Shown: positions 12,159-29,050 of the stretch, piece after piece
How the letters are laid out: each line of letters starts with the position of its first letter
How positions within the stretch are numbered: the stretch's first letter is position 1
DNA from: Enterobacterales bacterium
GTDB taxonomy: Bacteria; Pseudomonadota; Gammaproteobacteria; Enterobacterales; Kangiellaceae
DNA: 64,000 nt
Direction: 5' to 3'
Assembly (NCBI GenBank): GCA_030949565.1
Contig: JAUZSK010000083.1
Span: 1 to 64,000, forward strand
Notes under the pieces: generated by a model
The model's input: the letters and a program-made list of their open reading frames with translations, nothing else
What the model was told of the DNA's origin: nothing
The model's database searches: none
Position numbers and translations under genes: made by a program

Positions 12159-12872
12159 ATGGGTATATTTACTCGCTTTGCAGATATAGTTAATTCAAAT
12201 ATTAACTCTCTGCTTGATAAGGCTGAAGAGCCAGAAAAATTAATCCGCTTAATTATTCAGGAGATGGAAGACACTTTAGTTGAGGTGAGAACCGCCTCAG
12301 CAAGAACCATCGCTGATAAAAAAGAAGTGCTCAAGCGTATTGAACGGCTTGAGCAGGAAGCCAATGAATGGGAAAGCAAAGCTGAACTGGCTATCTCTAA
12401 AGGACGGGAAGACCTAGCCAAGGCGGCGCTGTTTGAAAGAAACCGCTCAGCCGACTTGCGCGACGAGCTTAACTCTGAGTTTCAAAAGATTGAATCTGAA
12501 TTACAGCGTTTGACCCAGGAGGTTGGTCAGTTGCAAGAGAAGCTAACCGATGCGAGAGCCAGACAAAAGACCTTATTAATGCGTCACAATACAACGTCTT
12601 CTCGACTAAAAGTTAAACGTCGTCTGTATGAAAGTGCGGGAGACGGTGCGGTAGATAAATTTGAACGCTTTGAACGAAAGTTGAATGATTTAGAATCCGA
12701 AGTTGAATCCTATGACGTTGCTGGTAACCGTTCATTGGCCGATGAAATTAATGATTTGGAGAAAGAAGAAGCTATTGATCAACAGTTAGCAGAGCTTAAA
12801 AAACGTGTTAAGGCGAATAATCAGACTAATAACAAATCTAAAAAACAATCTAAAAACAAGGGAGAAAGCTAA
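12159..12872 (+). CDS. pspA: Phage shock protein A
   Basis: PspA is an ESCRT-III-like peripheral membrane protein that stabilises a stressed inner membrane and, in enteric bacteria, holds PspF inactive. The product is 237 residues. It has the PspA/IM30 amphipathic start (MGIFTRFADIVNSNINSLLDK) and a long coiled coil from about residue 25 to 190, with the motif EEPEKLIRLIIQEMED. The Lys/Asn-rich tail is longer than in E. coli (222 residues). GGAGG at 12145-12149 precedes the ATG. Its stop overlaps the pspB start (TAATG). Confidence 0.96.
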   Translation: MGIFTRFADIVNSNINSLLDKAEEPEKLIRLIIQEMEDTLVEVRTASARTIADKKEVLKRIERLEQEANEWESKAELAISKGREDLAKAALFERNRSADLRDELNSEFQKIESELQRLTQEVGQLQEKLTDARARQKTLLMRHNTTSSRLKVKRRLYESAGDGAVDKFERFERKLNDLESEVESYDVAGNRSLADEINDLEKEEAIDQQLAELKKRVKANNQTNNKSKKQSKNKGES

Positions 12873-13093
12873 TGTGGGAAGCCCCGATAATACTCTTTAT
12901 GGTGGTGGTTGCGCCTATTTGGATTGTGATGCATTATCGCTCAAAGGGTGCCAAGCAAGGAGGTATTTCTGAAGCCGAGCACCAGCGACTTCAAGATTTA
13001 GCTAAAATAGCCGACTCAATGATGCAACGTATCGAAACTTTAGAAGCGATTTTGGACAAGGAAACGTCTAATTGGAGAGAAACTCATGAATAG
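12872..13093 (+). CDS. pspB: Phage shock protein B
   Basis: A 73-residue inner-membrane protein that, with PspC, senses membrane stress and releases PspF from PspA. One N-terminal helix (APIILFMVVVAPIWIVMHY) is followed by a cytoplasmic coiled coil containing DLAKIADSMMQRIETLEAILD, characteristic of PspB. The start overlaps the pspA stop by one base, and its end overlaps pspC by eight. Confidence 0.93.
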   Translation: MWEAPIILFMVVVAPIWIVMHYRSKGAKQGGISEAEHQRLQDLAKIADSMMQRIETLEAILDKETSNWRETHE

Positions 13094-13583
13094 GGACTCA
13101 CAACAATCTAAAAGACGTTATAACAGCAGACAAAATGACGATTCTACGTTTAGGGCAAGACGAGGCTTATACAAAAATCCGGATAAAGCCAAAATTTGCG
13201 GTGTATGCGTTGGTTTGGCTGAGTATTTCCAGTTTGAGACCTGGGTAGTGAGGCTGATTGCCTTCTCATTCTTTTTGTTTTCTGGTGGTAGCGCAATTAT
13301 CGCTTATTTTGTCGCCTGTCTTATTATGGACCCCAAACCAAGCACTAGAAGCAATAAAGGCTGTTTTGGTTCCGAAAAAAGAAGGCATTATCAGACTCAT
13401 GCTGAGGATAAACAATACAACCCTTCGGTTAAAGATGTATGGCGTAAAGGTGGTGCTCCAACGGAAACTCTTAGTAATTTGGAGGAAATATTTGATAATA
13501 TGGAAAATAAACTACAATCATTGGAGTCTTATGTGACCTCAAATCAATACCAATTAGCCAAAGAGTTTGAAAATATTAAATAG
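13086..13583 (+). CDS. pspC: Phage shock protein C (PspC domain protein)
   Basis: A polytopic stress sensor, 165 residues. The PspC domain at about residues 27-82 contains RRGLYKNPDKAKICGVCVGLAEY, quoted here only in part: LYKNPDKAKICGVCVGL. Two hydrophobic segments follow, with a final LIMDP. The C-terminal half is soluble and ends in a short helical segment (LSNLEEIFDNMENKLQSLE), as in enteric PspC. An N-terminal Arg/Gln/Asp-rich stretch precedes the domain. The gene overlaps pspB by eight bases. Confidence 0.93.
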   Translation: MNRDSQQSKRRYNSRQNDDSTFRARRGLYKNPDKAKICGVCVGLAEYFQFETWVVRLIAFSFFLFSGGSAIIAYFVACLIMDPKPSTRSNKGCFGSEKRRHYQTHAEDKQYNPSVKDVWRKGGAPTETLSNLEEIFDNMENKLQSLESYVTSNQYQLAKEFENIK

Positions 13584-13967: not shown

Positions 13968-16637
13968 TTGAGTAACTTAAACAAACATAATCCGCTTGCA
14001 AAAGCGGTGAAAGTAGCACTATTAGCAGCTTCAGTTGCTTCTGCTTATTCAGCGCCAGCTGTATTCGCAGCAGAAGAAGACGAAGCTGAAGGGCAAAAAA
14101 TCCTAGTTACTGGTTCACGTATTAAGCGTGTTGCAGTTGAAGGAGCACAACCCGTCACTATCATTACACGAGAAGAATTAGACTTATCTGGTGATACCAG
14201 CGTTGCAGACGTATTAAGAAATCAGTCTGCGAACAGCTTTGGTTCTTGGAAGGGTCAATCAGGATTTGGAGCAGGCGCAACAGGTTCTGCAGAAATCAAT
14301 CTACGTGGTGTTGGTGCAACTTTAGTATTGGTTGACGGTCGTCGTCTTCCTGGTGTTGGCTACGATGGTGGCGCAACGCAAAACTTAAATAACATCCCTT
14401 TAGCAATCGTTGAAAGAATTGAAATTCTTCGCGGCGGCGCGTCAGCAATTTATGGTTCTGATGCAGTAGCTGGTGTTGTAAACATCATTACACGTACTGA
14501 AATTTCTGGCGGTAGTTTTTCTGTATTGAAAGAAAACCGTGGAATCGATGACGGCGGCAAGATGAAGTATGAATTTGCAGCGGGTGTTTCTGGTGACAAA
14601 GGTAGCATGTTAATTGTTGCTGAGCATACCAGTATTGATGAATTAGAAGATAACTCAGTCACTGGTTTTGATAACGGTGTATCTTGGTGGTCTCCTGTAG
14701 CCAATACTTTTTATGCTAGTCAATCTGCAGGCGCTTATGTATCTTGGTTTGAAGATACTTTATGTGAATCTGTGCCTAACACGGTTAATCAAGGTTTCCG
14801 TTGCGGATACGCTTATTCGAACGTAACTTGGTTATACCCTCAGCAAGATTCTGATTCTGTTTGGGCCAAATTTGATTATCAGTTAACTGAAAATATTAAA
14901 TTTAATGCTCGTCTAGGCTATGTTGGAACCAAAACACATTCTCGTTTTGCACCGACTCCTGTATCAACTAATTCAGTGACCATGCAGTTTGATAACCCTA
15001 ATGCTCCTGCGGTTGTTGCTAATGACATTATTAGCGGTTTCGATCCAAATATCTATATCTATCATCGTACTGCTCTATTAGGTAATCGTGATGCATACTT
15101 TGAAGATAGCGCCTTTGACCTAGTGTTCGGCCTAGAAGGTTTCTTAAACTTTGGTGAAGGTTTTGATTGGGAAGTTAATTATCAGCGCACTTTAAAAGAT
15201 GAAACATTACTTAATGAAAATTTAATTAATGACGTTGCTTTCCAAAACGGCATTGATAACGGTGATTTTGATATCTTTAATGTCCAAGGACGAACGACTG
15301 CCGCTTGGTCTCAACATGCCCTTGATTTTTATCAGAGTGTTGCTCACACAGGTATATTCAAAGTCAACCAAGTAAAAGAGATTGTCGACGGCAATATTAG
15401 CGGCGAGATCTTTTCAAATGAGTCTATGACATTAGCATTTGTTGCTGGTGGCGAATATGAAACAACTGACTTCACTCAAGTATCTGACCCTGAGTCTGGC
15501 CAAGGCTTCATTTCTGGTGGTTCAGGTGGTGATGATGTTTTTGCTAAAAGAGACAGAACTTCTGTTTACTCTGAATTCGCATTAGATTTTGATTTCGGAT
15601 TAGAACTAAGCGCAGCTGTACGTTATGACAACTATGACCAAACTGGTGATGTTGGCTTAACTGCTGATGCAAATCGTAGCTTCTCTGATACAACGACTAT
15701 GTTTACAGCGGCTTATAGACCGACTGACGACTTATTAATTCGTGCTGTAGTTGGTGAAGCTTTTAGAGCGCCAACGATGCCTGAGTTATTTGCCTCTCAG
15801 TCTTTTGGTTTCCCATCAGGTTACGATTATTACTATTGTGACACTCAAGGAAATGCCTCTACAGCTGGTGCCTATTGTGATGCGACTAATCAGCCACAAC
15901 ACTTAGTATTCTCTGGTGGTAACCCAACATTAGAGCCTGAGCAAGGTGATACAGTTGCTGCGGGTGTTGTATGGAGTCCTTCAGATGACTTAACTCTTGA
16001 ATGGGGTTATTATGGCATCAAGTACTTTAACAAGATTACTAGCGTTTCAGTAAACGATATTCTTTTACAGAATAACGCACAAGGTGGTAACACTGCAGCT
16101 GTAACTCGTGGTGCAAACGGCCAGATCGCTTCTATACAAGGTGGTTCTTTGAATCTTGATAGTCAAGAAACAACTGGTTGGGATTTTGCTCTTCGTTACA
16201 ACCTAGAAACTAGCTTTGGTAACTTTGTATTTAAACCTTCAGTCAGTCGTGTTATTGATTTCGTTAACATTGATACAGATTCAAATGGTAACGTCATTCG
16301 TCAAAACATTGCTAACAGAGTTGATTTACCAGAAATGCGTGCAAACATTTTAACTAGTTGGTCTATGGAAGATTTTTATGCCGCATGGCAAATAAACTTC
16401 ATCAAAGGTCAACCAGCTAACGGTTCTGCATTTGTAGATCTTAAAGATACTTATTACCATAACCTCCAAGTTGGTATGCACACAGCATGGAACGGTGAAG
16501 TAACAGTTGGTGTAAGAAATGTATTGGATGAGCAAATTCAATTCTATACAGGTCAAGCGGCGTGGAGAAACTTCAACACTACGCTATATTCACCAGAAGG
16601 AAGAACAGTATTTTTCAGATATAAGCAAAGCTTCTAA
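13968..16637 (+). CDS. TonB-dependent outer-membrane receptor
   Basis: A beta-barrel receptor for active uptake across the outer membrane, 889 residues. The start is TTG 13968 with AGGGAGA at 13954-13960. A signal peptide ends near VFA at residue 34. A TonB-box-like segment (KILVTGSRIKR) and the plug domain (about 45-175) follow, with INLRGVGATLVLVDGRRL and ERIEILRGGASAIYGSDAV. The rest is barrel, with QGDTVAAGVVWSP late in the sequence and a terminal Phe. It resembles the large receptors of Alteromonas/Shewanella/Caulobacter for peptides or carbohydrates. The substrate cannot be read. A terminator follows, so it is probably a single-gene transcript. Confidence 0.95.
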   Translation: MSNLNKHNPLAKAVKVALLAASVASAYSAPAVFAAEEDEAEGQKILVTGSRIKRVAVEGAQPVTIITREELDLSGDTSVADVLRNQSANSFGSWKGQSGFGAGATGSAEINLRGVGATLVLVDGRRLPGVGYDGGATQNLNNIPLAIVERIEILRGGASAIYGSDAVAGVVNIITRTEISGGSFSVLKENRGIDDGGKMKYEFAAGVSGDKGSMLIVAEHTSIDELEDNSVTGFDNGVSWWSPVANTFYASQSAGAYVSWFEDTLCESVPNTVNQGFRCGYAYSNVTWLYPQQDSDSVWAKFDYQLTENIKFNARLGYVGTKTHSRFAPTPVSTNSVTMQFDNPNAPAVVANDIISGFDPNIYIYHRTALLGNRDAYFEDSAFDLVFGLEGFLNFGEGFDWEVNYQRTLKDETLLNENLINDVAFQNGIDNGDFDIFNVQGRTTAAWSQHALDFYQSVAHTGIFKVNQVKEIVDGNISGEIFSNESMTLAFVAGGEYETTDFTQVSDPESGQGFISGGSGGDDVFAKRDRTSVYSEFALDFDFGLELSAAVRYDNYDQTGDVGLTADANRSFSDTTTMFTAAYRPTDDLLIRAVVGEAFRAPTMPELFASQSFGFPSGYDYYYCDTQGNASTAGAYCDATNQPQHLVFSGGNPTLEPEQGDTVAAGVVWSPSDDLTLEWGYYGIKYFNKITSVSVNDILLQNNAQGGNTAAVTRGANGQIASIQGGSLNLDSQETTGWDFALRYNLETSFGNFVFKPSVSRVIDFVNIDTDSNGNVIRQNIANRVDLPEMRANILTSWSMEDFYAAWQINFIKGQPANGSAFVDLKDTYYHNLQVGMHTAWNGEVTVGVRNVLDEQIQFYTGQAAWRNFNTTLYSPEGRTVFFRYKQSF

Positions 16638-16657
16638 TCTGATTTTTACAGTTTGAT

Positions 16658-16693
16658 AAAAAACGGTGAGTAACTACTCACCGTTTTTTTTTG
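16658..16693 (+). terminator. Strong terminator after the TonB receptor
   Basis: ACGGTGAGTA (16663-16672) pairs with TACTCACCGT (16675-16684). It is flanked by A on the left and a long T run on the right. The A/T flanks extend the stem, and the T tract makes it a standard rho-independent terminator. Confidence 0.92.
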
Positions 16694-16758
16694 CTTTTAG
16701 AAGCCTCAGATTAAATTTTAATATGCAATAAAATCGTTTTGTTTAAAGGTGATTGTTA

Positions 16759-18272
16759 ATGAACTCATTTACTTCAGAAAGTATTGATATTCAATACAGA
16801 AAAGCGATTGCGTTTTTAAAATCAAAGGAATATCTTTTGAGTAAAAAGATATTGCTAAAATTAAATAAAGTTTCTAGTCCTAGTGTAAAAATATTATCTC
16901 CTTGGCTTTTGTTTATCAAAACCTAGGAGATAGGAAATTAGCTTTGCAATATTACGAGCAAGCCTTAAATCTTGACGCCAATCATATTTTATCTTTACAA
17001 AATAGCGCGATATTATTGAAAGAAATTGGGCTGAATATGAAAGCTATCGCCTTATTAAAAAGGGCGATGAGAATCAATCCAAATATCCCGGAAGTCCTAC
17101 AAAATTTAGCGACTAACCAAGCTTCACTCGGTTTCACCGAGGAATCTATCATTAATTTTAGAAAAGCGATTGCGTTAGAGCCCTTGAATCCATCTCACCA
17201 TCATTGGCTTAATTTACTTTTGTGGTCTATCAAGGAAGAAAGTTTTCTTGCATCCTATAAAAGTGTTTTGGATAAGTTCCCCAATGCGTTTTTAATTAAG
17301 CGTGAGCTAGCCTATAAACTGATATTAGCGGATAGAAAAGTTGAAGCTGAATTGATTTTATTAGAATTGGTTAAAAAGGAACCTAATAATTCACTAAATT
17401 TTAAACTATTGGGAAACGTCAGTAGAAAATTGAGAAAATTTAATTGTGCAATTGACTATCACTTAAAAGCTTTGTGTCTAGAATCCAATAACCTATCGCT
17501 AAAAGAAGAACTTGCGACAAGTTATTTTAGTGCGGGTTTACCGCAGAAAGCAGAATGTATTCTGCTAGATATTTTAAAACAAAACCCTATTCATCAAGGC
17601 GCGCTAGCTCTTAAATCATTAGTATTAAGAGTTCTCGAAAAAGATGAGTATCATGAGTTATGTGATTATAAGTCTCTAATATTATACGAGAAACTCAATA
17701 CACCTAAAGGGTTTGAATCGTTAGATGAATTTAATTTGCTTTTGATTAAAACCTTGGAACCAATGCATATAAGCAAGAAACATCCACTTGAACAGTCTTT
17801 AACCGGTGGAACCCAATCAATCGGCAATCTTTTCTTGCAATCTAAAAAGCCTTTAAAAATTTTAAAAAATTTACTTTCTGATAAATTTAAGGAGTTTATT
17901 TCCAGTTTTCCTGTGGTGGCTAATCACCCGGTTTACTCGAGAAACAGCCAGCAATTTAAAGATGGTGGCTCCTGGTCTGTTAGATTAAATAGTTCGGGCT
18001 ATCATCGTTCACATTTCCATTCTCATGGCTGGTTTAGCGGTCCTTATTATGTTAGTTTACCACCACAGATACAAGATACCGAGGCTAAGGAAGGTTGGAT
18101 TAAGTTTGGTGAACCAGGAATTGAAAACGTTTACAATCTTGAGGCTGATTACCTATTGCAACCTAAAGAAGGCTACATGGCGCGTTTTCCTTCTTACTTT
18201 TGGCATGGTACAACAGCATTTAAATCAGAACAGACCAGGTTGGTTGTAACTCAAGATGTTATTCCATTCTAA
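16759..18272 (+). pseudogene. TPR protein with C-terminal 2OG-Fe(II) oxygenase domain (frameshifted)
   Basis: The real start is probably ATG 16759 with AAAGGTGA upstream. The first 47 codons read MNSFTSESIDIQYRKAIAF, then the frame shifts at CCTTGG (16900-16904). One extra T there joins it to AFVYQNLGDRKLALQYYEQAL, the continuing TPR. About seven TPRs run to residue 270. The last 130 residues match the putative 2OG-Fe(II) oxygenase type (Pfam 2OG-FeII_Oxy_5): HSHGWFSGPYYVSLP carries the iron His, and FPSYFWHGT the second His. No signal peptide is seen, so a cytoplasmic hydroxylase of a protein or peptide is likely. The substrate is unknown. The next gene encodes a sulfotransferase. Confidence 0.8.
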
Positions 18273-18350
18273 GCTTTTCCATTTTAGACAGCCGTTTATT
18301 CTATTTTGGAAGAACTTGATGAATATTATTTAATTTTTTAAAAGGCTTAA

Positions 18351-19151
18351 TTGCAACATATGATTATATCCAATTCTTATAATTTCGTTTTACTTAGAGT
18401 TCCCAAAGTTGCATCAACCTCAGTCGCCATGGCTATTTACGATAGTGAACTCGTGAGTCTTGGTAAAGATGCATCTCCTGGATTAGAGCGTGAATATTTT
18501 CCAGAAGAAGATCGTTCTCATAAAGGTCGGTTAGCGATAAATCCTCATGTTTTCAATCCAATTATTAAATCAAATCATCGACTGGATTGGGAAAACTGGT
18601 GGCCGTGGCCAAAAACGAATCCAATGTTTTATGCCCATGCGACGTATTCTCAATTAGTTGAAATGAAATTGATAGTTGATGGCATGCCATCGATTGCGAC
18701 CATAAGGCATCCAGTTGATCGGTTTTTGTCCGTGTGGTCTTTTCTTACAAAAGGTCTGAGATCGATGGGCAAGGAATACGAAGCTGCCTATGCAAATGCA
18801 TCGCCCGCGACAGCAAAAATTTTAAATGCTGATGCCAACGAATTTTTTGATTTGTTTATAACATTAAAACTTGATAATGATATGGCTCGGACACCTTTAA
18901 TATTTACTCAAATGTTACGTAAACCGCAAACCTACTGGGGCAATAATTCGACTGAATATTGGGCGATTGAGAATATCCATCGCGAGCTTCCAAAGTTTTT
19001 TGAAAGTAAAGGTGTAGAAAATATAAAAATCCATCATTTAAAAAAGGATAAAAAGCGTAAAAAGAGGGATATATTGTCACCGGAACGTCAGTCAGCAATT
19101 ATTGAATTATACCCAAAAGATTTTATAATTTGGGAGACTCAACAGATTTAA
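18351..19151 (+). CDS. Sulfotransferase family 2-like protein
   Basis: A likely cytoplasmic PAPS-dependent sulfotransferase, about 266 residues. The 5'-phosphosulfate-binding motif is LLRVPKVASTSVAMAIY near the start. The 3'-phosphate motif IRHPVDRFLSVWSFL lies at about residue 122. The start is either TTG 18351, with AAAGG five bases upstream, or ATG 18360; I kept the former. It resembles the Sulfotransfer_2 families that modify carbohydrates or proteins. It lies 78 bases after the TPR/2OG gene and about 110 before a second 2OG-oxygenase gene on the same strand. The acceptor is unknown. Confidence 0.8.
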   Translation: MQHMIISNSYNFVLLRVPKVASTSVAMAIYDSELVSLGKDASPGLEREYFPEEDRSHKGRLAINPHVFNPIIKSNHRLDWENWWPWPKTNPMFYAHATYSQLVEMKLIVDGMPSIATIRHPVDRFLSVWSFLTKGLRSMGKEYEAAYANASPATAKILNADANEFFDLFITLKLDNDMARTPLIFTQMLRKPQTYWGNNSTEYWAIENIHRELPKFFESKGVENIKIHHLKKDKKRKKRDILSPERQSAIIELYPKDFIIWETQQI

Positions 19152-19261
19152 ATGGGTCTTTACGATCCTGCTGATTGATTTCTATTGGATATCGTTAACG
19201 ACTACTGTATTATTATTGTATGCTAAAAAAACTACCTACTTATGATATTGCCACAGGATAT

Positions 19262-20338
19262 ATGTCTGATTTTGTCAGAAAAATATCCATTGGTATGCCT
19301 GCACCTTTATTTGAATCTCGAGATGAAACTGGGAGAATATTGTCTCTATCAGAAGATTCTTTATCCGGTAATTATTTAGTCCTTATTTTTATTAATAAAA
19401 CAGATAATGAAAGCGCGCGAGAATTTTTAGCAAGCTTTGCTCAATATCGCAACCAATTGAATGAGACAGGTGCCAATATTGTTGTTATCAGTGAAAATAG
19501 CGATGCTTCAGCAAATATTAAGTTAAAACAGGACTCAAAATTCAGCTGGCCAATTTTATCAGATGCCGGTGGGAGTTTATTTGCTTCATTTGGATTGCAT
19601 AAAGGTGAAAATCAATTCTTAAGAATTGTTTTAGTGACCCCGCTTCGACAAATACGTGCGTGGTACGACGATCCGAAAGATATAAAATCAACTATAGGTA
19701 CCATTATGAATCAAATTACACCTGTGCAGCTAGAAGAAAATAAAAAATGGGTTCCATTTCATGCGCCTATCCTAGTTATTCCTAATGTTTTAACTAGAGA
19801 CGATTGTATGAAATTAATAGAAGCGTTCGAATCTAAAGGGCAATTTCAAGTCAGTATGCCAACCGGTGAAGGTTTAAAATCTGATTATAAAATGCCGGTT
19901 TATGAACATAATCGCCAAGATCGAGTTGATCACATAATTAAGGACCGAGAAATGCTTGGTTTCTTAGACCAAAGAATCAATGAACGCATCAACCCAGAAA
20001 TTAAAAAAGCATTTTCTTTTGCAGTAACGAGGCGAGAAGAGCTTCACATTGCAAGGTATGTTGGTCCTCGAGGTGGGAATAAAATGGGACATCGCGATAA
20101 TACTGGCCCTGCTACGGCGTATCGAAGGTTTGCCCTTTCTATCAACTTAAATGACGATTATGAAGGCGGTGAATTATTATTTAAGGAGTATAGTGAGTTT
20201 GGCTATAAAGGGCCCGCAGGTACGGCTTTAATCTTCTCATCATCATTGTTACATGAAGTTCAGGAAACAACTGAAGGAACGCGCTATAATTTGATTTCTC
20301 ACTTATTTGATAATAGTTCCGCCCCTATAAAACGATAA
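19262..20338 (+). CDS. Redoxin-like / 2OG-Fe(II) prolyl-4-hydroxylase-type fusion
   Basis: 358 residues from ATG 19262, preferred because AGGA lies 4-7 bases upstream; ATG 19220 has no ribosome site. Residues 1-155 have a peroxiredoxin/AhpC-TSA fold pattern (IGMPAPLFESRDETGR, NYLVLIFINKTDN) but contain no Cys, so the peroxidatic residue is missing. Residues 165-355 form a P4H-type dioxygenase: the iron ligands are His and Asp in MGHRDN and His in SLLHEV, and the 2OG Arg is in EGTRYNL. It probably hydroxylates a protein or peptide, with the dead redoxin as a binding module. It runs convergent with the next gene, 9 bases away. Confidence 0.85.
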   Translation: MSDFVRKISIGMPAPLFESRDETGRILSLSEDSLSGNYLVLIFINKTDNESAREFLASFAQYRNQLNETGANIVVISENSDASANIKLKQDSKFSWPILSDAGGSLFASFGLHKGENQFLRIVLVTPLRQIRAWYDDPKDIKSTIGTIMNQITPVQLEENKKWVPFHAPILVIPNVLTRDDCMKLIEAFESKGQFQVSMPTGEGLKSDYKMPVYEHNRQDRVDHIIKDREMLGFLDQRINERINPEIKKAFSFAVTRREELHIARYVGPRGGNKMGHRDNTGPATAYRRFALSINLNDDYEGGELLFKEYSEFGYKGPAGTALIFSSSLLHEVQETTEGTRYNLISHLFDNSSAPIKR

Positions 20339-20347
20339 AATTTAGAT

Positions 20348-21997
20348 TCATTTTAAGAGTATCTGTTTTTCAATTGGCTCTAGGTAAGGAAGATAGTTTT
20401 GTATTCGCCCTATTGATGAGGAGTAGAGTTTTTTGTGGACTTGACCCACGCTAGCCGTACGTACGTAATTGTTAGATTTTTCAAAATCTAAGCAGTCAGT
20501 TTCCCACGGTAGGCCGACGAATTCTATAAGTGATCGAGCATTTTGTTCATAATTACTGATCAATTCTTCATACCGGATGATATGAATATCCTTTTTATAG
20601 AGTTTTTTCCAATGCTTGATGAGCCTGTCGGTTTGCTGATCGTAATCTACGATATGTTGAAAGCTTGTTGAAAATGTTGAAAGGTCGTTAAGTTGCTGAA
20701 AATAGATCGATAGGGCATTATCGGCTAAATTTCTTTTGGTAATAATGAACTTGGCATTGGGTATGAGGTGCTTGATAACGCCGATGAAAGCTAAATTCTC
20801 GGGGCGTTTATCGGTAAAAAATCCGCAGCTATAATTTTTCCCTGAAATTTCTGAAATATATTCCTGTTTTATATCTAGCATTTTCGCTTTATCATTCCCC
20901 CTAAGAAGATTCCAATAGGTGTCTTCGTTTTGATGAAAGAGTCTAACAAAAAACTCTACCTCACCTAATGCTTTGATATTAGAGTGCCTTGACATAATTT
21001 GTTCGATTAGTGTTGAACCTGAACGAAAATGACCAACAATAAATATTGGAGATATCGAATCATCTATGTCCATTTGCTGGGATATTATTTTTGTATCAAT
21101 GGTCTTATCAACAAAGTATTTCATCTTATCGGGATTATATTTTCCGATACGTAAGCGATTCAGTTGGTTCGCTTCTCTGTAGTTGGTTATGGCACTTTTG
21201 TAGTTCTGGAGATCGTCGTAACCTTTGCCTAGAGCATAGTTTAGTTTTTCTTTATCAAATTTATTAGCGAGCTTTAGTCTTGCTTGGGCAAGTTTCAGTA
21301 AATACTGGGATTGTTCGGTAATTTTAGAGAGATAAATCCTTCTTACTAATGCTTCAATAAGACTTGGGTGCTTATCAATAAGCTGGTCGAATAATATTGC
21401 TGCATCTTCATTGCTGCCTTTGGCTTGTAGCAGCGTAGCTAAATTGAATTTTGCTTGCTGATGCTGATTGTCGAGAGATAAGCAGGCCTCTAAATTCTTG
21501 ATCCCTTCACTTTCATTTCCTGATTCTATCTGACTTAGCGCTAAGCCAAAATGACATTCTACTCGGTTAAGGTGATTCTTGCTGGCGAAGGTTTTTTTAA
21601 AATACTCTATAGCCTCTTTATAACATTTTTCTGAATGGTAAACCAAAGCCAGTTGCATAAAGCCCCTTGCATCTTTTGGGTTGCCTTTTATAAATAATTT
21701 AAGATCCGATATTATGTTTGTTTTTTGACCATTTTTTGTTAAAAGGTCCTGTAAAGCCTTAAGGTATTCAAATTTGCCTTTATCTAATTTTAACAAGTTT
21801 CTTGTACACTTTATGGATTGATCCCAGGCTGCAATTTTAGCGTAAAGCGCAGCACATACCCTGAGTGCTAACTCATTATTTTTATGCTTAGTTTGTAATT
21901 TGTCCAAAATTTTATTGGCATCAGTTAATTTACCCTGATTTATTGCTAGCTGGGCTTTAAGTGCTTGTTTCTGAATGATATTATTTTTTGGGTTCAT
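20348..21997 (-). CDS. TPR-containing sulfotransferase
   Basis: 549 residues. About seven TPR-like units fill residues 1-290 (for example FMQLALVYHSEKCYKEAIEYFKK). A sulfotransferase domain follows, with the PAPS loop IVGHFRSGSTLIEQIMSRH at about 318-336 and the later motif IITKRNLADNALSIYFQQL. The C-terminal family pattern (VRTASVGQVHKKLYSSSIGR) is intact. There is no signal peptide. It is transcribed leftward, convergent with the redoxin/2OG fusion and divergent from the S9 peptidase with a 136-base gap. The TPR part probably recruits the acceptor protein, which is unknown. Confidence 0.9.
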   Translation of the reverse strand: MNPKNNIIQKQALKAQLAINQGKLTDANKILDKLQTKHKNNELALRVCAALYAKIAAWDQSIKCTRNLLKLDKGKFEYLKALQDLLTKNGQKTNIISDLKLFIKGNPKDARGFMQLALVYHSEKCYKEAIEYFKKTFASKNHLNRVECHFGLALSQIESGNESEGIKNLEACLSLDNQHQQAKFNLATLLQAKGSNEDAAILFDQLIDKHPSLIEALVRRIYLSKITEQSQYLLKLAQARLKLANKFDKEKLNYALGKGYDDLQNYKSAITNYREANQLNRLRIGKYNPDKMKYFVDKTIDTKIISQQMDIDDSISPIFIVGHFRSGSTLIEQIMSRHSNIKALGEVEFFVRLFHQNEDTYWNLLRGNDKAKMLDIKQEYISEISGKNYSCGFFTDKRPENLAFIGVIKHLIPNAKFIITKRNLADNALSIYFQQLNDLSTFSTSFQHIVDYDQQTDRLIKHWKKLYKKDIHIIRYEELISNYEQNARSLIEFVGLPWETDCLDFEKSNNYVRTASVGQVHKKLYSSSIGRIQNYLPYLEPIEKQILLK

Positions 21998-22133
21998 ATG
22001 GTAATATTTGGTCTTGATTTAATGGGCCAATGATTGTAATAATAGATAGTGGCACAAAACAATCAATTTGATTTGTTATTTTACCAAAAGATTGGGTAGG
22101 TAGCAAAATAGGACAATAGGATAATTTTATATT

Positions 22134-24077
22134 ATGAAACAAAGACATATATTGGCTCTCACGATACTACTTATATTCGGGAGTGTCGGACAAAGCTTTG
22201 CAGATGTTCCCTTAATATCGGTAGAAGATTTTGCGAAACCGGGTAAATATCAGAACATGAAAATATCGCCAGATGGTACCCACTTAGCTTTTAATTATAG
22301 AGATGGCAATCGGGTGAATTTAGCGGTTATGGACTTAAAATCAAAAAAGCTCATCAGTAGTTTCCGCTTTAAGGAATGGCGGCAAGTGGTTAATTTTCAC
22401 TGGGGAAATGATGAGAGATTGTTGTTAGAAGTGCAAAAAAGAGTGGGTTACCTCGATAAAAAAGGTGGGCCACGGGAGCTTTATGCGGCTGATATCGATG
22501 GTCGCCATCGGAAACAGATATTTAAAGCTGGAAGATCGAGTTACAGGATTGCGAGTTTGCTGGAAAATGATCCTAAACATATTTTGTTGTTGAAGTCTCA
22601 TGGCGGAGACTATCACGCAGGGAGTGAAACTTTACCTACTATAGCAGTTAAAATTAATATTTATACGGGTAATCTAAATCGATTGACTGGTCAACCAACG
22701 CAGGATGTTAATCAGATAATTTTTGACGAAAATGACGAAATGCGTCTGGCTGCTAATTATGTGACAGACAAAGAAAAATTTGGTTGGGGGGAGTACTTTA
22801 TCTATCTAAAGAATAGAAAGTCCGGACATTGGTTGCGCTCTGACATAGTAACCAAAACGGATACTCGATTTAATTTTGTTGGGTTATCAGCCGATGGTGA
22901 CACAGCTTATGTTACGAGTGATGAAGATGGGAAAACTAATGTTCTCTATTCGCTTGACCTTAAAACTAAAAAGAAAACTAAAATTTTTCAAAGTGACATC
23001 GTCGATATCGGGGGTATGTTGAGCTCTGAAGACGGTATTATTCTTGGTTACACGTATCAACCTAATTATAATGTTGTTGAGTTTTTAGACAAAAAACATC
23101 GAGAAAGTATAGCTTTGGCAGGCTTGTTTGCTGCATTCCCAGGTCAAGACGTTTCATTTACAAGCTATACAAAGAATGCTGAACAAGCAATTATATTTGT
23201 GAGAAGTGATACTAATCCGGGAGTGTTTTATCTATTTGATTTCGCATCCAACAGTTTAAAACGGCTTGCAAAGGTTAAGCCTTGGCTAAAAACTGAATAT
23301 TTAGCGGAAATGCAACCAATTCAGTATACAGCGAGAGATGGGTTGGTGATCAACGGTTATCTAACCATTCCAAAAGGCAAAAAAGCAAAAAATTTACCGC
23401 TAATTATTAATCCACACGGTGGTCCTCATGGTCCAAGAGATCGCTGGGGATTTAATCCGGATGTACAGTTTTTAGCTAATCGCGGTTATGCTGTTTTACA
23501 GATGAATTTTAGAGGTTCAGGTGGTTATGGGCGGGAGTTTGAAACAACGGGATACCGCAAATGGGGCCGAGAAATGCAGGATGATATTACTGACGCAACT
23601 CAATGGGCTATTAAAGCGGGTATCGCGGATCCAAATAGAGTCTGTATCTATGGTGGTAGTTACGGTGGCTACGCAACTTTAATGGGAGTTGTTAAAGAAC
23701 CTGATTTATACAAATGTGGATTAGGCTATGTCGGAGTTTATGACCTTGAAACGATGTACACCGATGGTGATACACACCAATCGAAAGGTGGTATTCGTTT
23801 TCTAGAACATATTCTCGGAACTGATAAAAATGAACTTCGAGCAAATTCTCCAGCAAGACATGTTGATAGAATAAAAGCTTCTCTATTTATCGCTCATGGT
23901 AAGGAAGACGTTAGAGTACCTATGGCACAGTTTTATGCTTTAACTAAAGCGCTAGATAGAGCTAAAATTCCTTATCAATCAATGGTAAAGGACGAGGGAC
24001 ATGGCTACCAAAAGCTTAAAAATAGAATTGCTTTTTACAAGGCTATGGAAAAGTTTTTTGAGAAAAATTTGAAGTAG
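22134..24077 (+). CDS. Secreted S9 family prolyl-oligopeptidase-like peptidase
   Basis: A serine peptidase of the S9 (POP/DPP4/acylaminoacyl) clan, 647 residues. A signal peptide (HILALTILLIFGSVGQSFA) ends near residue 23, so it acts in the periplasm or outside. An N-terminal beta-propeller (about 30-390) contains repeats like MKISPDGTHLAFN. The alpha/beta-hydrolase domain (about 395-647) has the nucleophile in GGSYGGYA, the Asp in HGKEDVRVP and the His in DEGHGYQKL. It could trim peptides for uptake through the nearby TonB receptor (inference). Confidence 0.92.
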   Translation: MKQRHILALTILLIFGSVGQSFADVPLISVEDFAKPGKYQNMKISPDGTHLAFNYRDGNRVNLAVMDLKSKKLISSFRFKEWRQVVNFHWGNDERLLLEVQKRVGYLDKKGGPRELYAADIDGRHRKQIFKAGRSSYRIASLLENDPKHILLLKSHGGDYHAGSETLPTIAVKINIYTGNLNRLTGQPTQDVNQIIFDENDEMRLAANYVTDKEKFGWGEYFIYLKNRKSGHWLRSDIVTKTDTRFNFVGLSADGDTAYVTSDEDGKTNVLYSLDLKTKKKTKIFQSDIVDIGGMLSSEDGIILGYTYQPNYNVVEFLDKKHRESIALAGLFAAFPGQDVSFTSYTKNAEQAIIFVRSDTNPGVFYLFDFASNSLKRLAKVKPWLKTEYLAEMQPIQYTARDGLVINGYLTIPKGKKAKNLPLIINPHGGPHGPRDRWGFNPDVQFLANRGYAVLQMNFRGSGGYGREFETTGYRKWGREMQDDITDATQWAIKAGIADPNRVCIYGGSYGGYATLMGVVKEPDLYKCGLGYVGVYDLETMYTDGDTHQSKGGIRFLEHILGTDKNELRANSPARHVDRIKASLFIAHGKEDVRVPMAQFYALTKALDRAKIPYQSMVKDEGHGYQKLKNRIAFYKAMEKFFEKNLK

Positions 24078-24112
24078 GTATAAATAGGGATAGGGATAGG
24101 GATATCTCATGC

Positions 24113-24142
24113 TTTTCCCCCAATGCATTGATTGGGGGAAAA
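24113..24142. repeat. Perfect 12-bp hairpin after the S9 peptidase gene
   Basis: TTTTCCCCCAAT (24113-24124) pairs with ATTGGGGGAAAA (24131-24142) around GCATTG. The 3' side ends in A, not T, on both strands, so it is not a standard rho-independent terminator, although it sits 36 bases after the stop codon. A role in mRNA 3'-end protection is possible. Confidence 0.6.
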
Positions 24143-24943
24143 TAACTCTTGAATATTAATGCTCATATTGGTATTAATTTTGAAGACGACTAATTGTCAG
24201 TTAGTCCAGAAAGAACTTTAATTCTGTCTTTCCTATCATATTAAGGGTCATTCTGACTCGAACTGTTACAGTTATTGAAATTCACTCACTTTTATCTCGA
24301 AATTCAAATTTAGTCAAACCGAACTGGAAATGTAATCCTTTGTATTGATTAATGTACTACTGTATCTAGAGCTATCCTCCATTTAAATCGATTGTTGCAA
24401 TGCACTATTGAACGGTTTTATGGCCGATAATGTGTCGAAGGATTCTATTTTTATTCGCCAACTACCTCGTGATGATTAAACGCGGCATTTGTTAAGTATC
24501 TGTTATGGCAATAGGGTTAGAAGTGTCGTCATGTGCTATATTTATCGAGATAACGCTAAGAATCCAACTTATAACTATTTTGCTAGAATTAGTTAGCCAG
24601 GTAACTTTGTTTCTTCATCTTATAACAGATTATTGTAAGCCGAGTTAGAGACTAAATCGTCATTATCAGCGATTGCTGTCAGAAACCGCTAAAAGTATCT
24701 TTGTCCGCATCCTTGTGTTACACTAGTAACAGAGGTGGCGATCACGCTTGAATACGGGCCTGTTAGCATAAATTAGTATGCCTAGTTAGCGGTACGGGAT
24801 AGGATATGGAATCCCCATTTTTTGTTAATAAATAAGCAATATTGATTATTCAGCAATAAAAATTGAAATCTTAGGGTAAAAAGTCTCGAAACTAGTGGTA
24901 TAACCGTTTGACTCGTTCAAAAATTCTGTTTATAGTCGGCACA

Positions 24944-24999
24944 TCGTGCAATTGTTACTAATCTATTGCACTTTGTAAGTAAAGATTTCGATTGCACGA
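24944..24999. promoter_or_regulatory. Three GTGCAAT words upstream of the TonB2 operon
   Basis: TCGTGCAAT (24944-24952) is repeated inverted as ATTGCAC (24965-24971) and ATTGCACGA (24991-24999). The first and third form a perfect 9-bp inverted pair. They lie about 150-210 bases before the DUF3450 start, a plausible place for an operator. No Fur-like sequence was seen here. Confidence 0.35.
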
Positions 25000-25151
25000 A
25001 ATACTAAAAAAGATATGAAGCGTGTAATCAATGTTAGTAAAAATAGGTCATACATCAATTTTTAATCGATTATTGTCCTTCGGTTTCAGGCCGAATCTTA
25101 CTAGCTTGTATCAAATTTTATTTCAACCCTGAAACATAATTAGGAAGCCAC

Positions 25152-25934
25152 ATGCATAGTCGCAACAAAAAAAACCTACTTAAGGCAACAGCGTTAACGC
25201 TGGGTGCTTTATTCATGGCTGGGAATGCTCTTGCAGGACCATATGATACGTCAGTATCGATTGAAAAAAAGATCAACAAAGACACTAAAGCCGCTCAAAA
25301 GCGGGTTGACCGTTTTGCCGAACAGGCCGTTGATCTTAACGCAGAGTATAAATCTACTTTGCAGTTAATCGATAGCCTTCGCATATATAATAACCAGCTT
25401 GAGCTTTTAATTAAGTCACAGGAAGAAGAAATGGCTTCCATCAAGCGAGAAATGGCCACTATTGACGCTACAGAACGTGGTGCGATTCCATTAATGAACG
25501 AAATGATTGCATCAATCGACAACTTTGTTCAAATCGATATGCCTTTTAAAAAGGAAAAGCGAACAGAACGAATCAATAAACTGAAAAACTACATGATTCG
25601 AGCTGACATTCCTAATTCTGAAAAATACCGCAAGATTTTAGAGGCTTATCAAGCTGAAATTGGTTACGGAGAGAGCATTAGTGCTTATCAGGATACCATT
25701 ATGGACGGCTCAGAAGAGGTTCAAGTTGAATTTCTACAAGTTGGACGAGTTGCGTTGGTTTATTTAACACTCGACGGTAAATCTGCTGGTTTTTGGAATA
25801 TTGAGAAGAAGCAATATGAAGAGCTTGACGATTCCTATATAAGAAGTATCCAACAAGGGATCAAAATGGCCAATAAACAAGCCACAATGAATCTAATCGA
25901 ACTACCAATCCCTGCAGCGAAGAGGGCTGAATAA
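25152..25934 (+). CDS. DUF3450 protein of the TonB2 operon
   Basis: A 260-residue exported protein with a signal peptide ending GNALA near residue 28. Coiled-coil segments cover about 30-110 (KDTKAAQKRVDRFAEQAVDLNAEY in part). A compact C-terminal region contains VGRVALVYLTLDGKSAGFW. This is the DUF3450 family, regularly found first in TtpC/ExbB/ExbD/TonB operons of Vibrio, Shewanella and relatives. It probably acts in the periplasm with the TonB motor, in a role not defined. AGGA at 25142-25145 precedes the ATG. The stop and the ttpC start overlap (TAATG). Confidence 0.88.
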   Translation: MHSRNKKNLLKATALTLGALFMAGNALAGPYDTSVSIEKKINKDTKAAQKRVDRFAEQAVDLNAEYKSTLQLIDSLRIYNNQLELLIKSQEEEMASIKREMATIDATERGAIPLMNEMIASIDNFVQIDMPFKKEKRTERINKLKNYMIRADIPNSEKYRKILEAYQAEIGYGESISAYQDTIMDGSEEVQVEFLQVGRVALVYLTLDGKSAGFWNIEKKQYEELDDSYIRSIQQGIKMANKQATMNLIELPIPAAKRAE

Positions 25935-27317
25935 TGAAAATCAATAAAATATTAGCTATTGCTATTTTGGTTGGCGCAAGCTTTAACATCTCGGCAGCCG
26001 AAGAAGCCAAAAAAGACACCGGTGCGATTGAAACACCTGCTGCACAGACTTTAAGCGAGCTTTTGACCTTGGTGAAAGAAGAGAAAATTCGACAGTCTCG
26101 CGTTAATCAAGCAAGAATCGCTGAATTTAAAAAAGAACGTAACAAGCAAAGAGCTCTTTTAAATAAAGCGCTGGCTGAAAAACGACGTGAAGAAGCTCGT
26201 ACTGACCGTTTAAAGGCGCAATACGCAGCTAATGATAAAAAACTAGCTGAATTAGAAGAAGCTAAATTACTAAAAGCTGGCTCTCTAGGCGAAATGATTG
26301 GTGTTGTTCGTCAAGTAGCTGGTGATTCAGCTGCACGTTTTAGACGTTCAATTGTCTCTGCACAGTATCCAGGACGTTTTACATTTTTAGAGAAACTAGC
26401 TCAAGCTAAGGTTTTTCCAGAAATACCAGAAATTCGTCGTTTATGGGTTGAGATTCAAACAGAAATGACTGAACAGTCAAAAATTGTTAAATTTACGACT
26501 GATATTGTTAACCGTGATGGTCGTAAAGAGCCGCGAACGATTGATCGTATTGGTGGTTTCAACTTAGTTTCAAATGGTGAATACTTAGTATTTAATGCAG
26601 AAGAGCAAGATATAAACCAACTTTTATCGCAGCCAAAAGGTAGCTTTGTTGATACTATCGACCCCTATCAGGAAACAACCGCTGGTGTCGCTCGTCTTGC
26701 GATTGACCCTTCACGAGGAAGCATCTTAACCATTGAAGTTCAGCGTGAATCTTGGCCTGAGCGTGTTGAAAAATACGCTGGGGTTGTTGGTTACTCTATT
26801 TTCGTAGTACTTGGTGTTGGTCTATTAATCGTGTTCGAACGTTTATTCACGTTACTTACATTACGTAAGCAAATGATGGCTCAGTCTAAGTCTAGTACTC
26901 CGGGTAACAATCCTCTTGGACGTATAATGGCTGTGTACCTTGCCAATAAAGACGATGATACTGAAAATCTAGAACTCAAGTTAGACGAGGCGGTTCTCAA
27001 AGAAACGCCACGTATTGAACGGGGTATAACCATTATCAAGGTATTTGCCGCTGTTGCTCCATTAATGGGTCTCTTAGGTACAGTAACCGGTATGATTGAA
27101 ACTTTCCAAAGTATTCCTGTACGGTGCTGGTGATCCAAAAGTAATGGCTGGTGGTATCTCTTCAGCGTTGATTACAACAGTACTAGGAATTGTTGCAGCC
27201 TTACCTCTTATCCTATTACACAGCGTTGTATCAGGTGTTGCTAAAGGTCTTAATCACATGTTGGAAGAGCAAAGCACTGGTTTAATTGCTCAACACGAAG
27301 AAGAAGCAGGAGCGTAA
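25934..27317 (+). pseudogene. ttpC: TtpC-type MotA/TolQ/ExbB protein (frameshifted)
   Basis: TtpC is the extra ExbB-like subunit needed by TonB2 systems in Vibrio. The first frame (to 27133) has a signal sequence, a long charged coiled coil (about 60-120), a periplasmic domain, a helix at about 288-307 (VVGYSIFVVLGVGLLIVF) and the MotA/ExbB motif LMGLLGTVTGMIETFQSI. The frame is lost at about 27113-27117. The last three helices and YGAGDPKVMAGGISSALITT continue in another frame to 27317. Removing one C, or adding two bases, rejoins them to about 460 residues, the expected length. ExbB follows after four bases. Confidence 0.87.
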
Positions 27318-27321
27318 GCCC

Positions 27322-27846
27322 ATGCTATTTCTTGAGGAAATATTGGCTACTGTCGAACAGTTTATTGATACTGGGGGCAGCGTGCTGTGGTTTATTGCAG
27401 CAGCTCTGTTAGCTATGTGGACCCTGATTATTGAAAGGTTGTGGTATTACAACCGTACTTATCCCAAAGTTGCACGTTTGATGATTGCAAGATGGGATGC
27501 GCGCGAGGATACCACTTCTTGGAAAGCTCACCGAATTCGTGAGGCTTGGATTTCTCAGATGAAACAAGAGCTTAATTCGGGCCTGCTGGTAATTAAAACC
27601 ATTGTCACCATTTGTCCGATGATCGGATTGCTAGGCACGGTAACGGGCATGGTTCAAGTATTTGAATTGATGGCTCTTGCTGGCACAGGAAGCGCACGAC
27701 TATTAGCCGCAGGTATATCGCAAGCAACCATCCCCACAATGGCGGGAATGGTGGCAGCGCTATCAGGTTTATTTATCAGCGCTCGTCTTGAGTATTCGGC
27801 TAACGTCCGTGCTCAAGAGCTAGCAGACCACATGCCTCACCATTAG
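27322..27846 (+). CDS. exbB: ExbB2-type proton-channel subunit
   Basis: An inner-membrane motor subunit of the TonB2 complex, 174 residues from ATG 27322 (AGGAG at 27308-27312). An in-frame TTG at 27286 would overlap ttpC and is less likely. The first helix is SVLWFIAAALLAMWTLIIE. The MotA/TolQ/ExbB channel region contains MIGLLGTVTGMVQVFELMA and the last helix includes TIPTMAGMVAALSGLFIS. With ExbD it uses the proton gradient to drive TonB. The start is four bases after ttpC. Confidence 0.93.
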   Translation: MLFLEEILATVEQFIDTGGSVLWFIAAALLAMWTLIIERLWYYNRTYPKVARLMIARWDAREDTTSWKAHRIREAWISQMKQELNSGLLVIKTIVTICPMIGLLGTVTGMVQVFELMALAGTGSARLLAAGISQATIPTMAGMVAALSGLFISARLEYSANVRAQELADHMPHH

Positions 27847-27869
27847 TGAGGCAATAGCTTTTTATTTGT

Positions 27870-27897
27870 TTAGCCAATGCTAATTTTTATTGGCTAA
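27870..27897. repeat. Hairpin between exbB and exbD
   Basis: TTAGCCAAT (27870-27878) pairs perfectly with ATTGGCTAA (27889-27897). It lies in the only sizeable gap (161 bases) of an otherwise overlapping operon. It lacks a trailing T run, so it could be a processing or stability element rather than a terminator. Confidence 0.5.
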
Positions 27898-28007
27898 AAG
27901 GATAAATTGTTATCTGGAGTAAATTAAGACTAGTTAACTATGGTAAGGCCTTCTTCCTTGTGAAAAGGTCTTGATAGTAAACTTATAGATTTTAGGATTA
28001 ACCTATT

Positions 28008-28409
28008 ATGGCAAAGAAAAGACTAAGTTCGGCTCAAGATGAAGCGCAAATTGATATGACGCCAATGCTAGACATTGTCTTCATCATGTTGATTTTCTTT
28101 ATTGTGACAGCTTCCTTTGTTAAAGAGTCGGGGATTACAGTAGATAAACCAATTGCTGAGACCTCGACTAAACGACCAAAAGCTAACATTTTCATTGGCA
28201 TTGACCAAAATGGCAATATCTATATGTTAAAAAACAAGGTTGATAAAGAAGCAGTCAAAGCGGGTCTCGAAGTAATGTTACTCGAAAATCCAGAAAGTAC
28301 CGTGGTAGTACAGGCAGATAGCCGTGCGGACGCTGGAGTTCTTTTAAAAGTTCTTGATTCGGCTAAAGCGGCAGGCGTTAAGAACGTATCAGTAGCGGCG
28401 GATTTATAA
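28008..28409 (+). CDS. exbD: ExbD2-type TonB motor subunit
   Basis: A 133-residue membrane protein with one helix near the start (LDIVFIMLIFFIVTASFV). The conserved Asp22 of MTPMLD is the proton-path residue in the ExbD/TolR family. A small periplasmic domain follows, with TVVVQADSRADAGVLLKVLD. It forms the motor with ExbB and TtpC. The stop overlaps the tonB start (TAATG), so the two are coupled. Confidence 0.95.
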   Translation: MAKKRLSSAQDEAQIDMTPMLDIVFIMLIFFIVTASFVKESGITVDKPIAETSTKRPKANIFIGIDQNGNIYMLKNKVDKEAVKAGLEVMLLENPESTVVVQADSRADAGVLLKVLDSAKAAGVKNVSVAADL

Positions 28410-29035
28410 TGCAACGTATAATTATAGGAATAGCGGCGGCACTGGGTATCACTTTTGCACTGTTTGTTTTGATGGCTTACTTAATTAAGGTTGAGCTAAA
28501 GCCCTTCGGCGACGCGAAAACACCATCTATTCAGATAAGCATGGTCGAACCTGATGACGATATTAATATTCGTGAAAGACGATTGCCTAAAAAGCCCGAG
28601 CCACCTAAAACACCACCACCCCCACAAAAACAGCGTGTGGCAAAAGCAGAGCGTCCTAAGGTTCAAAGTATGAATCTTAATATGGAAAGGCTAGATGTGG
28701 CGATTGCAGGCAACGGTATGTATTTAGGACCTCCTGGCGGCGGCAACATGGGTGATGGAGAAGCAATCCCTATGGTAATCATTCAGCCACGATATCCACG
28801 AAAAGCGGCAATGGAAGGAATTGAAGGTTGGGTAAAATTTAGATTTACCATTTCACCTGATGGTACACCTAAAAATGTCGAATTGATTGACGCAAAACCT
28901 CGACGTATTTTTGAGCGTGATGCAAGACGAGCTATATACAAATGGAAATTTAAACCTAATGTAGTAGACGGCAAAGCAGTCGAACAGCCCAATATGATTT
29001 ACACCATGCAATTTACGCTTGCAGCCGACGAATAG
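28409..29035 (+). CDS. tonB: TonB2 energy transducer
   Basis: Transmits energy from the ExbBD motor to outer-membrane receptors. The product is 208 residues, short as TonB2 proteins are. It has an N-terminal anchor helix (about 3-25), a short Pro/Lys spacer (KKPEPPKTPPPPQK) and a C-terminal TonB domain from about 125, with YPRKAAMEGIEGWV and the end pattern YTMQFTL. The receptor at 13968 is a plausible partner; this link is inferred from the 11 kb distance only. Confidence 0.94.
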   Translation: MQRIIIGIAAALGITFALFVLMAYLIKVELKPFGDAKTPSIQISMVEPDDDINIRERRLPKKPEPPKTPPPPQKQRVAKAERPKVQSMNLNMERLDVAIAGNGMYLGPPGGGNMGDGEAIPMVIIQPRYPRKAAMEGIEGWVKFRFTISPDGTPKNVELIDAKPRRIFERDARRAIYKWKFKPNVVDGKAVEQPNMIYTMQFTLAADE

Positions 29036-29050
29036 GAAGAGAATTTAAAG

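Follow-up and report, generated by a model that had tools for sequence, protein, structure and literature searches.

A variable cassette of candidate TPR-guided sulfotransferases and 2OG oxygenases beside a TonB-dependent receptor in a Kangiellaceae genome

Genes between PspC and the TonB2 motor operon

The window analysed here is a 64,000-nucleotide stretch on contig 84 of an Enterobacterales bacterium of the family Kangiellaceae, whose assembly comprises 3.58 Mb in 94 contigs. Pfam and NCBIfam scans located all six genes that an earlier note on this DNA had listed, at the positions given below, together with a TonB2 operon starting at 25152. The six genes occupy a slot bounded by PspA/PspC genes on one side and by the motor operon on the other:

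12159–13583, plus strand: PspA and PspC genes, the left boundary of the slot (Pfam)
13968–16637, plus strand: TonB-dependent receptor (TBDR) with plug and barrel, 889 aa (PF00593, 4e-26; PF07715, 8e-22)
16902–18272, plus strand: TPR protein with a PF13759 2OG oxygenase domain (TPR-2OG; Pfam), its N-terminus apparently frame-broken, with the first part in frame 16759–16926
18351–19151, plus strand: PF03567 sulfotransferase (Pfam, 4e-9)
19220–20338, plus strand: AhpC/TSA redoxin (Pfam) with a C-terminal PKHD/P4H-like 2OG domain
20348–21997, minus strand: TPR protein with a PF13469 TPST-like sulfotransferase domain, 549 aa (TPR-sulfotransferase; Pfam, 3e-33)
22134–24077, plus strand: S9 peptidase of the Dpp5-like type, exported, whose hydrophobic N-terminus resembles a signal (Pfam, 1e-50)
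25152–30343, plus strand: motor operon encoding DUF3450, a long ExbB (TtpC-type), ExbB2, ExbD2, TonB2 and a TPR protein, the right boundary of the slot

Signal peptide-like stretches are present on the receptor and the S9 protein and on none of the modifying enzymes. The GC content is 0.35–0.37 across 16.9–22.0 kb as against 0.40–0.41 for the receptor and motor genes, and the low value is consistent with this segment being exchangeable cargo. An AT-rich gap of 1,074 bp (24078–25151) precedes the TonB2 operon, where most relatives have 300–670 bp; it contains neither a convincing ORF nor an Rfam match. No Rfam RNA elements were found across 11–32 kb of the window, and the repeats are just short, chance-like pairs.

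Properties of the encoded enzymes

When the catalytic domain of the TPR-sulfotransferase was searched against the sequences of solved structures, human TPST1 was the closest match, followed by TPST2 and otherwise by one marginal match to CurM. The AlphaFold model of the protein (pLDDT 90.9) superposes on human TPST1 with bound peptide (5wrj) with a Z score of 21.9 and an rmsd of 2.5 over 233 residues, whereas the next sulfotransferase type scores 17.7 or less. Residues 325–329 (RSGST) correspond to the RSG[ST]T 5'-phosphosulfate binding loop, of which Arg325, Gly327 and Thr329 are invariant among 22 sequences. Glu346 and Lys397, likewise invariant in the 22 proteins, align with the Glu and Lys of TPST1 that we take to be its catalytic residues, and the invariant Ser516 lies within a TAS..QV motif that presumably corresponds to the STDQV motif of TPST. 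Judged by sequence and predicted structure, the enzyme is TPST-like, resembling the animal TPST1/2 in fold, P-loop and the positions of the catalytic Glu, Lys and Ser. Unlike it, TPST1/2 are Golgi membrane enzymes without TPRs, and tyrosine has been shown to be their acceptor; tyrosine as the acceptor of the TPR-sulfotransferase is an assumption carried over from TPST.

The PF13759 match of the TPR-2OG scores 69.7 bits against a curated Pfam cut-off of 27 bits. Its ORF encodes 456 aa from a TTG start, about 150 N-terminal residues fewer than most relatives (about 600 aa), and an upstream ATG frame at 16759–16926 encodes TPR-like sequence in a frame different from that of the ORF. Because the ORF is truncated and TPR-like coding continues upstream in another frame, the gene looks frameshifted, either really or through mis-assembly, and the window's own copy may be broken or inactive. 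A relative from the family genome G008 gave a predicted model with a pLDDT of 93. The fold search with the TPR-2OG model was dominated by TPR matches and was uninformative on the 2OG domain. An alignment of 19 sequences (L116:7710–9518 and 18 relatives) has in common His515, an HxH at 518–520, His582 and Arg593 (L116 numbering), and the HxD position is not acidic in any of them; the HxH...H...R pattern may represent an unusual three-His metal site. A full-length TPR-2OG used as query had matches in 17 of 394 genomes of the order. The TPR region of the TPR-2OG model superposes on the TPR domain of O-GlcNAc transferase (OGT), as does the TPR half of the sulfotransferase model on the OGT superhelix; this is a common fold, and for both enzymes the likeness is weak evidence by itself.

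The remaining three genes are conserved partly or not at all. The PF03567 sulfotransferase has the PAPS-site motifs PKVASTS and RHPVDRFLS and was found in the window's genome only, both among 40 genomes of the family and among the 394 genomes of the order (1/394), and was accordingly rejected as a conserved member of the cassette; a distant PF03567 protein, 23% identical over 133 residues, is present in a cassette of Asticcacaulis. In the redoxin/2OG protein, the C-terminal part falls below Pfam detection, its likeness to PKHD hydroxylases coming from a sub-threshold NCBIfam match (1e-9) and from a match to PiuC (E 0.01); an HxD at 291–293 and His345 are present. The single cysteine of the protein, residue 196, lies outside the redoxin domain, which is itself Cys-less and, having no peroxidatic cysteine, probably does not function as a peroxiredoxin. 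None of the five other genomes of the genus contains the protein. Relatives 42–61% identical occur in other Proteobacteria, in unrelated neighbourhoods without any gene recognisably related to the TBDR, TPR-sulfotransferase or TPR-2OG of the window, and a conserved neighbourhood for this gene was rejected on that ground. The Cys-less redoxin fused to a 2OG domain constitutes a stand-alone family with varied neighbourhoods (L006–L013). Since neither the PF03567 gene nor the redoxin/2OG gene recurs with the cassette, both are placed outside the conserved unit, either as passengers or as similar cargo specific to the strain.

The S9 peptidase has its catalytic motifs (GGSYGG, Asp and His) and is 65% identical to the copy in the G008 cassette, and it recurs in a few cassettes only. 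Against the NCBIfam model for lasso peptide isopeptidases (NF033523, Atxe2) it scores 63.4 bits, below the cut-off of 400. Fragmented S9 genes are seen in two sister cassettes (L131:15360–17086, oriented, and L224:5414–6941), which suggests decay of this member.

Recurrence of the TPR enzymes beside receptors and other surface proteins

The slot is empty in the family's distant genera, where the DUF3450/motor operon comes directly after PspA and PspC (L137, L140, L143–L146 and L148), whereas in close genera, and in another family, it holds a TBDR with modifying enzymes. Among the 40 family genomes searched, G008 carries at the same site a syntenic receptor, 70% identical to the window's TBDR, with a TPR-2OG, a TPR-sulfotransferase, an S9 peptidase and a second TPR-sulfotransferase, and G011 has a related locus. 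The slot of L131 holds receptors, two TPR-sulfotransferases, a methyltransferase and a 2OG oxygenase; that of L136 holds receptors, methyltransferases, 2OG enzymes and a subtilisin-type protease. A genome of the same genus has a TPR-sulfotransferase and two tryptophan halogenases directly upstream of the TonB2 operon (L130:4308–7527); the contig stops short of any receptor. Slots L134 and L135 contain a receptor, a methyltransferase and a radical SAM protein, the last being large (about 850 aa) and situated downstream of the other two (L134:2439–5018, L135:5705–8239). In the other family, the loci L171, L173 and L175 combine a TBDR, a TPR-2OG, a methyltransferase, an AspH-type hydroxylase, a TPR-sulfotransferase, two PF13661-type 2OG enzymes, DUF3450 and TonB2, and independent cassettes occur in further families of the class (L253 and L254). 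AspH (PF05118) and SapC members of the cassettes were identified by Pfam. The PF05118 proteins and the Ofd1/Tpa1-like PF13661 enzymes of sister cassettes resemble AspH and Ofd1/Tpa1, which are 2OG-dependent side-chain hydroxylases; the window's own 2OG genes differ in belonging to PF13759 and to a PKHD-like group, without a characterised substrate.

Four minimal loci (L177, L180, L181 and L184) consist of a TBDR, a TPR-2OG and the TonB2 motor only, which makes the receptor or the motor the candidate substrate. That the modifying enzymes act on the motor proteins (DUF3450, TtpC and TonB2) and not on the receptor is highly improbable: DUF3450 is also found near most TPR-2OG loci, but in L176, L178, L183, L253 and L254 the receptor is retained while the TonB2 operon is missing from the stretch examined. 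Given these minimal loci, in which the 2OG enzyme is the only modifying enzyme, and cassettes that have a sulfotransferase only, the ordered pathway of hydroxylation followed by sulfation that the earlier note had suggested is not supported.

A TBDR lies within 1 kb of the TPR-2OG in 13 of 19 loci and within 5 kb in 16, and within 5 kb of the TPR-sulfotransferase in 22 of 38; these loci are related by descent, so that the counts are not phylogenetically independent and binomial values overstate their significance. The chance expectation for a TBDR within 5 kb is about 11%, given a density of 200 TBDRs per 26.8 Mb, and among 20 arbitrary 15-kb control windows one contained a TBDR, at its edge. 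The receptor-enzyme link is real, though for part of the gene set only. The co-occurrence in relatives on which the original proposal depended holds for the two TPR enzymes and partly for the S9 peptidase, and fails for the PF03567 and redoxin/2OG genes.

When 65 receptors were placed in a tree, all 21 rows linked to a TPR-2OG (assigned by a 6-kb rule, so that some are incidental) and 13 of the 20 linked to a TPR-sulfotransferase fell into one group with few controls; the controls were the best PF00593 scorers and are biased to another receptor type, which accounts for part of the contrast. Six other sulfotransferase-linked receptors formed a second group. Distances between TBDRs correlated with those between TPR-sulfotransferases (r 0.41) and between TPR-2OGs (r 0.62), values reached in none of 2000 permutations; such co-inheritance fits any functional link. 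Tyrosines in an acidic context are not enriched in sulfotransferase-linked receptors, at 4.0 per 1000 aa compared with 5.4 in cassettes without a sulfotransferase and 3.8 in controls (p 0.34 and 1.0), a result that neither shows nor excludes tyrosine as the acceptor. Cassette-linked receptors among the 65 contain about 7–9 cysteines each, compared with 1.6 in the controls of the other receptor type, and may have disulfide-bonded loops.

TPR-sulfotransferases also adjoin surface proteins of other kinds. At 16 of 22 distinct plasmid loci an exported surface protein is encoded within about two to three genes: a TBDR in Pseudoalteromonas, Novosphingobium, Komagataeibacter and Asticcacaulis, and an autotransporter in Enterobacter/Lelliottia, Kluyvera, Thalassospira, Pacificitalea and Azospirillum. 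Strains in which the TPR-sulfotransferase has a TBDR as its neighbour include Pseudoalteromonas CuT4-3 and HL-AS2 and Novosphingobium US6-1. The neighbour is a porin in Cereibacter; in Comamonas it is a cadherin-domain adhesin, accompanied by a type I exporter (T1SS). The Asticcacaulis locus (Alphaproteobacteria), with a TBDR, a PF03567 sulfotransferase, AspH, a TPR-sulfotransferase and a further sulfotransferase, is independently similar to the window's mixture. In Paroceanicella profunda the enzyme adjoins flagellin within a flagellar cluster (L277:2792–5802), a candidate flagellin sulfotransferase. No obvious surface-protein neighbour was found for several TPR-sulfotransferases of small-genome relatives (L218–L222, L229 and L232) or at six of the 22 plasmid loci.

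On three Enterobacteriaceae plasmids (L259, L266 and L279) the TPR-sulfotransferase is accompanied by a GT8 glycosyltransferase and an autotransporter, a combination that could constitute an adhesin modification system. The GT8 gene beside these two in Enterobacter, Lelliottia and Kluyvera would also fit sulfotransferases that act on surface glycans (LPS, capsule or adhesin glycans), with the receptor a mere neighbour, and PF13469 and PF03567 are broad families that include enzymes with carbohydrate acceptors. We nevertheless consider a glycan acceptor very unlikely: the closest solved relatives are protein-tyrosine enzymes (Z 21.9 versus 17.7 for other sulfotransferases), the receptor cassettes examined lack polysaccharide genes, and the co-resident 2OG and AspH-type enzymes would be left unexplained.

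Because what the neighbours of the TPR-sulfotransferases share is export to the surface and not an imported ligand, modification of a surface protein before export is favoured. A receptor, an exported peptidase and a motor do make up a plausible uptake route, and the enzymes could instead act in the cytoplasm on the imported ligand, such as a foreign peptide or a siderophore, during its use. This would require entry of the ligand into the cytoplasm, but the cassettes have no recurrent inner-membrane importer; the S9 peptidase is present in few of them, and the TPR-sulfotransferase has neighbours other than receptors. Modification of the ligand is thus improbable, to about the same degree as a glycan acceptor.

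Candidate substrates and proposed function

The earlier note had left two branches standing, modification of the receptor or other exported proteins and production of a sulfated, hydroxylated peptide that is cleaved and imported. The second corresponds to enzymes acting on a small peptide or metabolite of RaxX- or RiPP-like type that is secreted, processed by the S9 peptidase and recaptured by the receptor. Clusters for lasso peptides contain S9 isopeptidases together with TBDRs, and the tryptophan halogenase, radical SAM protein and methyltransferase of the sister cassettes are typical tailoring enzymes. Protein tyrosine sulfation has been described in few bacteria only, through RaxST. This Xanthomonas enzyme is the known bacterial TPST, and its cytoplasmic action is on a small peptide that is then exported (PMC9372746, PMC6637879). 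The window's enzyme would share with RaxST a cytoplasmic location, TPST-likeness and action before export; it differs in being a TPR fusion beside a TBDR, whereas no TPR domain is mentioned for RaxST in the paper searched for one. No convincing precursor ORF, RaxX-like or other, is apparent in the intergenic gaps (short ORFs could be missed), no T1SS gene lies among the genes scanned around the sulfotransferase, and the loci scanned contain neither a dedicated exporter nor a RiPP core gene. The minimal loci described above, the 63-bit score of the S9 peptidase against the 400-bit lasso isopeptidase cut-off, and the pairing of the TPR-sulfotransferase with autotransporters, flagellin, porin and adhesin likewise count against a peptide product. 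We regard such a product as unlikely, though the least so of the alternatives, and the branch that invokes modification of exported proteins is the one retained.

We propose that the slot between PspC and TonB2 holds a variable receptor-modification cassette, in which cytoplasmic TPR enzymes modify the exported receptor before export and the modified receptor and the TonB2 complex take up a ligand. The proposal starts from the gene content, the conserved linkage, the TPST-like fold with its conserved catalytic residues, and modifying enzymes without a signal peptide-like stretch; taken as a whole, we judge it slightly more probable than an even balance. The TPR superhelices of the TPR-2OG and of the TPR-sulfotransferase would hold the unfolded receptor in the cytoplasm, or, in other bacteria, another exported surface protein in its place, and side chains would be hydroxylated or O-sulfated ahead of Sec export and of the assembly of the barrel. 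Once modified, the receptor would take up a ligand with the power of the adjacent TonB2 complex; in cassettes that include the exported S9 peptidase, this ligand is probably peptide-like. We infer the receptor as acceptor, the residues modified, and consequences for uptake or for recognition by phages or bacteriocins. Among the enzyme types of the cassettes, TPST, AspH and the Ofd1/Tpa1-like 2OG enzymes have best-known relatives that act on proteins.

TPR-guided or cytoplasmic modification of proteins is carried out by OGT and by the cytoplasmic adhesin and flagellin glycosyltransferases HMW1C and AAH, the bacterial cases acting before export. Those systems glycosylate, whereas sulfation and hydroxylation are proposed here, and the analogy is one of logic only. 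In largely open-access literature we found nothing on a TBDR with a TPR-sulfotransferase or TPR-2OG, on hydroxylation of outer-membrane receptors, or on the biochemistry of any cassette enzyme. The single relevant remark is in a 2022 review, an unpublished observation by Stewart and P.C. Ronald that bacterial TPST genes often adjoin genes for extracytoplasmic proteins; the passages concerned do not mention TBDRs, TPR fusions, 2OG partners or the PspC-TonB2 slot (PMC9372746). The enzyme set and its presumed target are best called new, and cytoplasmic modification of exported proteins a known kind of process.

A wider generalisation, that in many Proteobacteria TBDRs and further proteins of the surface are edited in the cytoplasm by TPR-guided sulfotransferases, hydroxylases, methyltransferases and halogenases in exchangeable sets, and that the cells thereby change their ligand range or evade phages and bacteriocins, is put forward tentatively and is more doubtful than the reading of this one cassette. 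If true, it would supply a substrate for orphan tryptophan halogenases that neighbour TBDR-linked genes. A conserved cassette in which a receptor and its motor are joined by enzymes of TPST-like and AspH-like type suggests a possible substrate for several orphan enzyme families encoded beside TBDRs, and it predicts, on named proteins of culturable Pseudoalteromonas and Novosphingobium, concrete modifications that would be testable by mass spectrometry.
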